In this document: piece by piece, positions 5,105 through 9,634 of the stretch
How the letters are laid out: the number at the start of each line of letters is the position of its first letter
Numbering within the stretch: the first letter of the stretch is position 1
NCBI GenBank assembly: GCA_013289165.1
Contig: JABDAL010000018.1
Span: 1-34,166 of the forward strand
DNA: 34,166 nucleotides
From: Bacteroidota bacterium
Lineage (GTDB): Bacteria > Bacteroidota > Bacteroidia > JABEUT01
Direction: 5' to 3'
Position numbers and translations under genes: made by a program
Notes under the pieces: generated by a model
Told to the model about the DNA's origin: nothing
Seen by the model: only the letters and a program-made list of their open reading frames with translations
Databases searched by the model: none

Positions 5105-6661
5105 TTATTTTGGCGATAAATGTATAAAAGGTATTATCATCTCTTCTAAAGAAATACCACCATGCTGGAAGGTATTCCGGTAATAACTTACATAGTGGTT
5201 GTAGTTATTAGGGTAGGCAAAAAACTTGTTTTCCTTGATAAAGAGGAATATACTGCTCACATGTTGACGGGGAAGGAAAGCATCGGCCGGGTTCTTCAGC
5301 ATAAATACATCTTTTCCTTGGTAGGTAAGGCTTTTGCCCTGTTTGTAGCGCAGGTTGGTAGTCGTATTTTTATCACCAATAACTTTCGAGGGTTCCCCTA
5401 CCTTTATAGTTCCATGGTCGGTGGTAATAATAAGCTTTCCGCCTATAGCCCTGATATTCTTAATAATATCACGGAGAGGGGAGTGCTGGAACCATGATAC
5501 GGTGAGGGAGCGGTATGCCGCATCATCACTGGCAAGCTCGCGTATTACCTCCATTTCGGTGCGGGCATGCGAAAGGGTGTCTACAAAGTTATATACAATA
5601 GCATTCAGCTTATTGTTGGCAAGGCTGTGTATACTGTCTGCCAGCCTTTTTCCTGCCTCAAAATTGGTAATTTTATTGTAGGAGAACTTGATATCTTTTC
5701 CTGACCGTCTCAATAGTCCGGCAAGGAATTCTTCTTCATGAAGATTCTTGCCTCCCTCATCCTCATCATTTTGCCATTTTCCGGGATACATCTTTTCTAT
5801 TTCCGAGGGCATTAAACCTGCAAAGAGGGAGTTTCGGGCATATTGCGTACAGGTAGGCAATATGGCAAAGTACATTTCTTCTTTGTCAGTGTAAAAGTCT
5901 TCCTCTATAATGGGTTGAAGCAATTTCCACTGGTCATACCGCAGGTTATCAATTACCACCAGGAATACCGGGTGGCTATGCTTTTCCACATCGGGCAATA
6001 CTTTGGTTTTAATTAGTGTATGTGAAAGAACAGGCACATCCTTGCTTCTTCCATTGAACCAGTTTACATAATTCCGTTCAATAAACTTGCTAAATAAGGT
6101 ATTAGCTTCCGATTTCTGCATGGCAAGTATTTCCTTCATGCTCGAATCAACTGACTTTTCCAGTTCCAGTTCCCAAAAGATGAGTTTTTTATACACATCT
6201 TCCCACTCTTTAATACTCAGGTTATCCGACAACATCATGCTGATATTGCGAAAATCTTGTTGGTAATTACTCGTTGTTTTTTCACTGATGAGCCTGTTCT
6301 TATCAATGTTTTTCTTGATGGAAAGCAATATCTGCCCGGGATTAACAGGTTTTATCAGGTAGTCTGAAATTTGCGAGCCTATGGCATTGTCCATAATGGC
6401 TTCTTCCTCGCTCTTGGTTATCATTATAACAGGAACCCGTGGTTTCAGATTCTTTATTTTGGTGAGCGTTTCCAACCCGGAGAGACCCGGCATGTTTTCA
6501 TCCAGAAATACTAAATCGTATCCATCCTTGCTAAACTCGTCCACGGCATCGTTACCATTGGTAACCGTCTTTACATTAAAGCCTTTGTCTTGAAGGTATA
6601 ACAGGTGGGGCTTAAGGAGATCTATCTCATCGTCTGCCCAAAGTATGCTTATTTTATCCAT
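5105..6661 (-). CDS. porX: PorX: response regulator receiver + PglZ (alkaline-phosphatase superfamily) domain, T9SS regulator
   Basis: 518 aa; MDKISILWADDEIDLLKPHLLYLQDKGF...DLVFLDENMPGLSG receiver followed by a PglZ-type domain (FLVVIDNLRYDQW, LPTCTQYARNSLFAGLMP, IITTDHGTIKVGEP). Confidence 0.93.
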   Translation of the reverse strand: MDKISILWADDEIDLLKPHLLYLQDKGFNVKTVTNGNDAVDEFSKDGYDLVFLDENMPGLSGLETLTKIKNLKPRVPVIMITKSEEEAIMDNAIGSQISDYLIKPVNPGQILLSIKKNIDKNRLISEKTTSNYQQDFRNISMMLSDNLSIKEWEDVYKKLIFWELELEKSVDSSMKEILAMQKSEANTLFSKFIERNYVNWFNGRSKDVPVLSHTLIKTKVLPDVEKHSHPVFLVVIDNLRYDQWKLLQPIIEEDFYTDKEEMYFAILPTCTQYARNSLFAGLMPSEIEKMYPGKWQNDEDEGGKNLHEEEFLAGLLRRSGKDIKFSYNKITNFEAGKRLADSIHSLANNKLNAIVYNFVDTLSHARTEMEVIRELASDDAAYRSLTVSWFQHSPLRDIIKNIRAIGGKLIITTDHGTIKVGEPSKVIGDKNTTTNLRYKQGKSLTYQGKDVFMLKNPADAFLPRQHVSSIFLFIKENKFFAYPNNYNHYVSYYRNTFQHGGISLEEMIIPFIHLSPK

Positions 6662-6884: not shown

Positions 6885-6922
6885 AAATAAAAAAGCCCAA
6901 CCTTCCGGCCGAGCCTTTTTGA
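6885..6922 (-). terminator. Intrinsic terminator of the T9SS cargo gene
   Basis: Minus strand AAAAAGGCTCGGCCGGAAGGTTGGGCTTTTT: GC-rich stem with GGAA loop, T-run, just after the stop at 6940. Confidence 0.75.
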
Positions 6923-6939
6923 AAACACCTACCTATTAA

Positions 6940-7783
6940 CTACTTATTCAGTACGATTTTTCCTTCATTTATAGTAGCCCCGCCTTCTCCCAATGCCTTG
7001 TAGAAGTAAATCCCATTCGGTTGATTGCTTAAGTTTAGCTGGATAAAATGCCCGGAAACATTCTCCGTTTGGACTTTTTCTCCAATAATAGTATAAATAT
7101 CTATGGTTTTAAGCACATTGTTTTCAGAAGCTATTTGAACAATTCCCCTTGTTGGATTTGGGTAAACCGTAATATTTCCTCCCGATGTTTGTAGATCTTC
7201 CATTCCTGCAACATGGTTGCCTGTAACGGTAACATTGTCAATAAAGATACCATTGTCCTGGTTATAGTATCCTCTGAAATCTACATAAACACTGTCTGAG
7301 CCACCCGGAATGGTAAGTGTTGCCGAATCATATTTAGGATTTGCATTTGAGTTTACAGTTTTATAACCGGGTATAGGAAGCGAATGGAGCGAACCATGTT
7401 TACCTATATAATAGAAGACTGCAAGGCTATCATCAAAGCCAAAATAATTACATGCTATATAATAGAACTTTACTTTAGCATTACTATATGTTTTTAGATT
7501 AACCAATGGTGTTACCAGGTCCGTTACGCAGGAAGTTGCTCCCCCATCCCACAGAGCTGCCATATAGTTTCCTTTATAGGCAGAAACGTTACTGTTAAGT
7601 ACACTGCCCGATTGGGCCTCCTCCCATTTATTGGTTCCATTGGTATTGAATGCTCCCCCCCCCTTGCCAGGTACTGGGCATAGTGCCATTCTCCTCAAAG
7701 CCTTCATTGATTAAAACTGTTTGTGCATTTGAAAATGCAATTCCGGCAAATAATATTGCCACTGTGAATAGTCCTTTTTTCAT
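6940..7783 (-). pseudogene. T9SS type A sorting-domain secreted protein, frameshifted at a G9 tract
   Basis: ORF 7628..7861 (real start likely MKKGLFTVAILFAGIAFSNAQ at 7783) and ORF 6940..7707 join at a 9-bp homopolymer (7655..7663). Removing one G gives a continuous 280-aa protein: signal peptide, adhesin-like/choice-of-anchor-type domain, and C-terminal VYPNPTRGIVQI...NGIYFYKALGEGG..NEGKIVLNK sorting domain. Confidence 0.8.
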
Positions 7784-8009: not shown

Positions 8010-8891
8010 TTAATGCTTGTCTCTTAGCTTTGAAACATCCGGTTGTCCGGCATTCACCCAGGCAGTGTACCAAAAGTTTGACACATCTACAGCTGACGAG
8101 CGGAGTTGTTTTTCCACCATACCGTTCAAAGCCCTATTATAGGCTGCAATATATGCAGGAGTGTATCGTATTTTATTGTTTTTAGACGGCAGGTACTTTT
8201 CGCTTTTAGTAAAGTGGGTTGATACTTCTTTCTCCTTTATCAATACAATAGGGACCAATGAATAGGTCTGTTTTAAAATATTCCAAATTGTAGCAGCGGG
8301 GTCTTTTAAATAAACGGCTCCTCCATTTATATGTTGGTAAGTATCTCCGAAAGCCTCCGATATAGCTGATTCCCAAAGGGCATGTATGCCCTCCTGTCCT
8401 GTCAATTGTCCGTTATAGTTTGCTACCGTATGCAATGGTACATGTGCATCTGCTACGTAGTGGCCTATGTTCGCTGATGCTCTCAAAATAGTGTTTAAAT
8501 CCTTTTTCTTAAAAGCATCGGTTAGTTTATTTTCCCAATAAATTACCTCCCAGGGTAAGGTGCCATATTTGTTCAATGTATCTTCTGAATACCTTTTGGC
8601 AGCGTCTTTCCAGTATTTGGGTAATACATCAAACGGATGGCTGCCGTAGTGGTCAATATTTATAAAGTGATGGGGGCCTTCGGCAGAGTCAATAAATTTC
8701 TTCTTATCAGGATCAACGGCGTGTATAGTGATGTATTCAATATTCCTTTTATAAAACCCTGCAAGTGGAGCGGGAACTCCATATACTGCCATTCGGTTGA
8801 TTTTTTTGTGGGCGTAAAATCCCAATGAGAATGCATTGAGATAAATAATAATACCAGGTAAAATAAGGGCAACTGGGCGTATCCTTCTCAT
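8010..8891 (-). CDS. Zinc-dependent phospholipase C / S1-P1 nuclease-like protein
   Basis: MRRIRPVALILPG...GFYAHKKINRMAVYG...EGPHHFINIDHYG...ANIGHYVADAHVPLHTVANYNGQLTGQEGIHALWES, with His/Asp spacing typical of the PLC/P1 superfamily. The start at 8891 overlaps the upstream stop as ATGA; the track start at 8963 is probably too long. Confidence 0.8.
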   Translation of the reverse strand: MRRIRPVALILPGIIIYLNAFSLGFYAHKKINRMAVYGVPAPLAGFYKRNIEYITIHAVDPDKKKFIDSAEGPHHFINIDHYGSHPFDVLPKYWKDAAKRYSEDTLNKYGTLPWEVIYWENKLTDAFKKKDLNTILRASANIGHYVADAHVPLHTVANYNGQLTGQEGIHALWESAISEAFGDTYQHINGGAVYLKDPAATIWNILKQTYSLVPIVLIKEKEVSTHFTKSEKYLPSKNNKIRYTPAYIAAYNRALNGMVEKQLRSSAVDVSNFWYTAWVNAGQPDVSKLRDKH

Positions 8892-9634
8892 TTGCCTTTG
8901 TGACGCACAATATAATTGCCTTCCAGTATAGGAACTACAGGAGCCAGGTCTGGCGTAAGACAATATTTTACATCTTCCGAAAGGTTCAATTTCTCCAGGC
9001 GCTTGAAGTGTGATGATTTTTCCATAAAGCCCAGGAGATCCTTTTGTGCCAACTCGTACAATGTTTTAGATGCCAACGTTGAATCATAATTTGTTTCAAA
9101 TAAATTTGTTTTATCTAACGTATAGGCAATAGCTCCTGCACAAAGTGTATCTTCCAGGTTGAAAAAATCCTTCCATCCTGCACACAGTAATATAATATTC
9201 TTATGCTGATGAGATAACCACTCACAAAGGATGCTAAGGTTAACAAATGAGCCAATAACAATACGAAAGGCTTTCCTGGCAGCACGAATGGCCTGTGTAC
9301 CATTGGTGGTGGTAAATACAATAATTTTACCTTTTAGTTTGGGGTCCTTATATTCCGATGGGGAATTACCCAAGTCAAATCCTTCCACTCGTTGTGCCTG
9401 CCGTTCCGCCGCACACAAAAACCCTTTCGATTGAAAATTCCGTGCTTCTAATACGGAAGCTACTGGCAAAATTTTTTCTACCCCATTATGTAATGCAGCG
9501 CAAATGGAAGAAGTGGCACGCAAAACATCAATTACAACTATAATGCTGCTTTCATGCGGGTAAAGCGGAAAGGAGTGTGGAGAGAAACACACTTCAATGG
9601 TATGCTTAGTAGTTCCGGCTCCCATTTCCTTCAA
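8888..9634 (-). CDS. comB: 2-phosphosulfolactate phosphatase family (ComB-like)
   Basis: 248 aa; VVIDVLRATSSICAALHNGVEKILPVASVLEAR, CAAERQAQRVEGFDLGNSPSEY, TTTNGTQAIRAARKA: ComB family hallmarks. The annotated start is TTG; ATG at 9625 is an alternative. Confidence 0.85.
   Translation of the reverse strand: MKEMGAGTTKHTIEVCFSPHSFPLYPHESSIIVVIDVLRATSSICAALHNGVEKILPVASVLEARNFQSKGFLCAAERQAQRVEGFDLGNSPSEYKDPKLKGKIIVFTTTNGTQAIRAARKAFRIVIGSFVNLSILCEWLSHQHKNIILLCAGWKDFFNLEDTLCAGAIAYTLDKTNLFETNYDSTLASKTLYELAQKDLLGFMEKSSHFKRLEKLNLSEDVKYCLTPDLAPVVPILEGNYIVRHKGK

Follow-up and report, generated by a model that had tools for sequence, protein, structure and literature searches.

Is a gene for a predicted secreted protein in an uncultured member of the Bacteroidota, which is split between two reading frames at a run of nine G's, a phase-variable gene that was assembled in its OFF state, or was it broken in some other way? 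The source is a draft MAG of 2.2 Mb, 70% complete and in 116 contigs, and we analyzed 34,166 nucleotides of its contig 18 (JABDAL010000018.1; hereafter, the window). The gene, which we will refer to as the tract gene, has these parts:

7655 to 7663, minus strand: G9 homopolymer (C9 on the plus strand, CCCCCCCCC), the frame-change site, where the two gene parts join in different frames

7628 to 7783, minus strand: 5' part, with an ATG at 7783, a signal peptide (MKKGLFTVAILFAGIAFSNAQ, judged by eye) and the initial residues of a domain (EGFEENGTMPSTWQ); 51 codons, then a stop, in the assembled (putatively OFF) frame

6940 to 7662, minus strand: 3' part, which lies in the second frame and encodes a choice-of-anchor J domain (NF038128) and, at the C terminus, a type A sorting domain of the T9SS (TIGR04183; PF18962, 2.1e-11)

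6940 to 7707, minus strand: longest in-frame ORF of the 3' part, from an internal ATG at 7707

The first 40 codons of the 5' part cover the signal peptide and the start of the domain, the G9 tract follows, and this frame stops at 7628-7630. The frame downstream is one base off; it stays open for 240 codons after the tract and ends with the stop at 6940-6942. A preliminary description of this locus had stated that the signal-peptide ORF and the ORF with the domain and the sorting signal lie in different frames and meet exactly at the G9 tract, which the sequence and the frames confirm. It had also stated that a tract shorter by one base fuses the two frames into a protein of 280 amino acids; this is correct. 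In the assembled G9 allele, the Sec signal peptide and the sorting domain are not in the same frame, and only a change of length puts them in phase. A product restarting from the ATG at 7707 would have no signal peptide, which would prevent its export.

From the list of ORFs alone, the two parts could be taken for unrelated ORFs that adjoin at the tract by accident. However, the choice_anch_J profile scores 33.5 bits against the downstream frame by itself (profile positions 23-162) and 47.1 bits against the read-through protein (positions 1-162). Homologues in other genera, found when 295 genomes of the class were searched (25-38% identity), span the junction within a single open frame, with no break. 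At the junction, the tract gene has the loop WQGGGAFNTN, where homologues have, for instance, GWTQEYVHDT. Because the profile and the alignments of the homologues are continuous across the junction, the two ORFs are one domain that is split at a loop, and an accidental meeting of unrelated ORFs is refuted. The match to the choice-of-anchor J family (NF038128) is above the cut-off, as are those of the 3' part to the sorting domain (TIGR04183/PF18962; 34.6 bits versus a cut-off of 23, and 44.4 versus 27). A search of the rest of the tract gene for another stop or frame change found none, and the sorting tail is intact. The second inactivating mutation that the preliminary description had associated with a plain pseudogene was thus looked for and not found: a change in tract length alone can restore the frame.

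A long tract is not unusual by itself. The window has no other G/C tract of 9, and the 2.2-Mb MAG has six of at least 9, including this one. In DNA the size of the window, a G/C tract of at least 8 is unremarkable by chance: of 100 shuffles, 31 gave two or more overlapping matches. Chance does not readily account for a frame change that lies exactly at the tract and that recurs elsewhere. When we read all 15 G/C tracts of at least 8 in the MAG (genome G000), 6 of them broke a gene. Besides the tract gene, these are:

G000, contig C12, 48273 to 48282: signal-peptide and LYG-repeat protein with a T9SS tail; G10, with the break directly after the signal peptide, a layout like that of the tract gene

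G000, contig C31: DUF2807 head-GIN putative autotransporter adhesin, broken at a G10

G000, contig C35: giant RHS protein, broken at a G9

G000, contig C54: outer-membrane-like protein, broken at a G8 (no family match; classified by eye)

G000, contig C59, 4658 to 4665: D12-class adenine methyltransferase, broken at a G8; a candidate phase-variable methyltransferase

Seven further breaks were found in congeners:

G007, C56:7867 and C48:8827: two paralogous SBBP-repeat T9SS proteins, both broken at the motif TYY-GGG (G9 and G8)

G007: an SprB adhesin and an RHS protein, with the frame broken at a G tract

G005: glycine-rich T9SS protein, with the frame broken at a G tract

G001: BNR-type T9SS protein, with the frame broken at a G tract

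G003: T9SS protein, with the frame broken at a G tract

Across 11 congeneric genomes, the 13 broken genes thus comprise 8 for T9SS cargo, 2 for RHS proteins, 2 for outer-membrane-like proteins, and 1 for a DNA methyltransferase. In all 13, the G run is on the coding strand, the downstream part is open to its own stop, and no second lesion was seen. The T9SS signal is intact in the broken cargo genes, and the remaining members of the same cargo families are largely intact.

No such break was found in genes of the cytoplasmic class. In the 11 genomes, none of nine genes that we classified as cytoplasmic and that have a coding-strand G8-G10 is broken: these encode ThiD, Ppx/GppA, IcmF, ClpC, a glycosyltransferase, a JmjC-cupin protein, a phage-tail sheath protein, PolA, and a protein with no assignment. 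Nine secreted or envelope genes with a coding-strand G8-G10 are also in frame. Overall, 13 genes are broken and 9 intact among those for surface proteins or methyltransferases, versus 0 broken and 9 intact among the others (13/22 versus 0/9, Fisher P = 0.0036, with the two classes set post hoc, after the breaks were known). If only tracts of G9 or longer are considered, the contrast is weak (9 broken and 5 intact versus 0 and 4, P = 0.08). Of the 14 surface genes with G9 or longer, 9 are out of phase, close to the two thirds that free drift in length predicts. Each of eleven genes with a C8-C9 on the coding strand is in frame (P = 0.009 versus coding-strand G). As for A/T tracts of 8-10, 157 lie within intact ORFs and 7 were flagged, mostly at ordinary gene junctions, as judged by eye.

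The number of tracts does not indicate that they have been selected. We found no excess of G8 or longer over shuffles of synonymous codons (about 14 observed versus 10 expected, in a sample enriched for tracts), and for the whole genome, the count of G8 or longer is at or below the synonymous-codon expectation. There is thus no sign that tracts have been selected for switching; the long G tracts look like by-products of glycine-rich loops rather than an evolved excess. A genome from another family of the same class, G017, carries 164 runs of at least nine G's in 4.0 Mb, versus about 1-2 per Mb in most relatives, and 27 of the 28 coding G9-G10 tracts that we examined in it are in frame, many of them in cytoplasmic enzymes. 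Most of the surface genes that have a G9 in this genome are likewise in frame, so a long tract by itself does not prove switching. G017 seems to tolerate very many poly-G runs without breaks. Another genome, G053, has 24 tracts of G9 or longer in 2.2 Mb, which is high for the class.

The preliminary description had proposed comparing the length of the tract in related genomes. However, we found no orthologue of the tract gene in the 10 other congeneric genomes, and the relatives that we examined have ordinary sequence at the homologous loop, with no G run. The tract at 7655-7663 is thus represented by a single assembled allele. Three paralogues of the broken LYG-repeat gene in the same MAG (C12:46392, C43:11521 and C43:13043; 80-88% identical) are in frame at the site and have an interrupted G5 or shorter there. 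In both this family and the SBBP family of G007, in which two paralogues are broken at the site, most copies have short or interrupted glycine codons at that position, which implies that the tracts are recent and not ancestral.

We also considered the neighborhood of the tract gene, since the preliminary description had placed the gene immediately upstream of porX, a regulator of the T9SS. Two features lie downstream:

6889 to 6920, minus strand: intrinsic terminator between the tract gene and porX (14-pair stem, GGAA loop and T tail; -18 kcal/mol, z = -3.2)

5105 to 6661, minus strand: porX, which encodes a T9SS response regulator with a PglZ domain (NF052313, 822 bits); the downstream neighbor of the tract gene and outside the proposed switch

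Although porX is indeed the downstream neighbor, the terminator separates the two genes and their adjacency is not conserved: a porX-tsaE-ald block is conserved in the genus, and the tract gene is beside porX in no other genome that we examined. Given the strong terminator and the retention of porX-tsaE-ald without the tract gene, a link to porX is not supported. The proximity to porX is due to chance and carries no evidential weight. As to whether the host encodes a T9SS, the MAG has PorX (the 822-bit match) and dozens of proteins with sorting domains. Upstream of the tract gene, at positions 8010-8963 of the window, there is a weak match to S1/P1-like nucleases (PF02265, 21.9 bits, below the cut-off of 29.5). 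A motif scan for MutS and MutL in about half of the MAG found no match.

Overall, we think that the tract gene is probably a translational phase-variable gene for a T9SS cargo protein, which was assembled in the OFF state and whose frame switches by slipped-strand mispairing. This rests on what can be read directly from the assemblies, namely, the break in the frame, the homology to a single protein across the junction, the intact remainder, and the recurrence in surface genes of the genus. The reading is favored because the break recurs in surface genes of this genome and of the genus and not in genes of the cytoplasmic class: breaks are found only at poly-G and only in genes for surface proteins or a DNA methyltransferase, and A/T tracts hardly ever break a gene. 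The tract gene would encode a surface or secreted protein of about 280 amino acids, with a Sec signal peptide, a choice-of-anchor J domain of the jelly-roll type, and a T9SS type A sorting tail. The reading frame would pass through a slippage-prone G tract that encodes a Gly-Gly-Gly loop early in the domain. In the G9 allele, which would be the OFF state, translation would stop after 51 codons and yield the signal peptide and a stub of about 30 residues, with neither the domain nor the sorting signal. If slippage during replication changed the tract to an in-phase length, such as 8, the complete T9SS cargo would be made again, and a population would therefore be expected to be a mixture of ON and OFF cells. 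We infer that G9 does revert to an in-frame length and that switching of the tract gene matters to the cell.

The preliminary description had left the choice between phase variation and a sequencing error. The genome-wide and genus-wide pattern favors switching by slippage and makes an error less likely; the switch may be reversible and may have an adaptive use. In the case of an error, practically every cell would have an in-frame tract, to which the consensus adds one G. The source is a fragmented and incomplete draft, indel errors usually sit in homopolymers, and 10 of the 13 broken genes in the genus have a tract that exceeds the closest in-frame length by one base (two-sided P = 0.09), a bias that a systematic over-call could also explain. 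However, errors should be blind to the function of the gene and to the coding strand, which does not fit with the nine genes of the cytoplasmic class with G8-G10 and the 11 genes with coding-strand C8-C9 that are in frame. Nor does it fit with the rarity of breaks at A/T tracts of equal length, or with the assembly of G017, in which coding tracts of G9-G10 are nearly always in frame. We consider an error to be rather unlikely, and G9 is presumably the true majority allele.

Neutral decay would explain the pattern differently: a dispensable, lineage-specific gene with a tract that is hypermutable by chance was lost by a single slip, and the OFF allele is useless and will degrade. That the genus has no orthologue of the tract gene and that the numbers of tracts fit the codon expectation are consistent with decay. 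So are the intact and nearly identical paralogues of the broken LYG-repeat gene, because of which single copies look dispensable. However, we saw no second lesion in the tract gene or in the other broken genes, whose downstream parts are open and, for the cargo genes, whose T9SS signals are intact. Also, at a tract of 9, the reverse slip is no harder than the one that broke the gene, so a physical switch is present even if it is not under selection. We consider decay to be unlikely. Alternatively, RNA polymerase might slip, or the ribosome might shift frame, on the G9 tract and give a low and constant level of the full-length protein, with no genetic switching: long homopolymers can make the polymerase slip, and it is exactly at the tract that the two frames overlap. 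However, the tract and the junction are not conserved in homologues, unlike programmed recoding sites. Furthermore, 10 of the 13 broken genes require a +1 shift and three require a -1 shift, so no single programmed shift would suit all of them. We consider recoding to be very unlikely.

As a candidate phase-variable gene, the tract gene resembles the contingency loci of Campylobacter jejuni, Helicobacter, and Neisseria, in which an in-frame G tract of 7-10 lies within the coding sequence of surface-related or restriction-modification genes. At those poly-G or poly-C loci, a change in length by one base toggles between a full-length and a truncated product. In C. jejuni NCTC11168, there are 29 polyG/polyC loci of at least 7 (PMC4965091), and a poly-G gene of C. 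jejuni was measured to switch at about 2e-2 (PMC8437040). Unlike those loci, the tract gene belongs to an uncultured member of the Bacteroidota and its cargo would travel through the T9SS; also unlike them, tract numbers are not above the codon expectation and the candidate is represented by one assembled length. Within the family of T9SS type A cargo with a choice-of-anchor J or cleaved-adhesin-like domain (NF038128, TIGR04183), the tract gene has the expected domain and sorting tail, both above the cut-off, but it differs from the relatives that we examined in having a G run at the loop.

Phase variation in Bacteroidota has been described mainly as DNA inversion, and invertases control surface genes such as capsule promoters and SusC/SusD family proteins (PMC11868660). 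The phylum and the class of target (surface proteins and capsules) are the same as for the tract gene, but those systems use site-specific DNA inversion, whereas the candidate element in the tract gene is a homopolymer. That review of phase variation in Bacteroidota (PMC11868660) mentions no homopolymer case in the phylum. A full-text literature search for homopolymer or poly-G phase variation in the T9SS, Flavobacterium, or Bacteroidetes found nothing relevant.

We can only tentatively suggest a broader possibility, that the genus has a poly-G "phasome" in which many T9SS cargo proteins, adhesins, and RHS proteins and a DNA methyltransferase switch independently by slippage in glycine-coding tracts, a route to surface variation in the phylum separate from the well-known inversions. 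The contrast in breaks between surface genes and genes of the cytoplasmic class, at equal tracts, is a simple test that could be applied to any MAG. If the switch is real, so that tract lengths are mixed, then free-living Bacteroidota would switch their T9SS surface proteins by the cheap mechanism that host-adapted pathogens use, and many of the apparent pseudogenes for secreted proteins in MAGs would be switchable genes in the OFF state.
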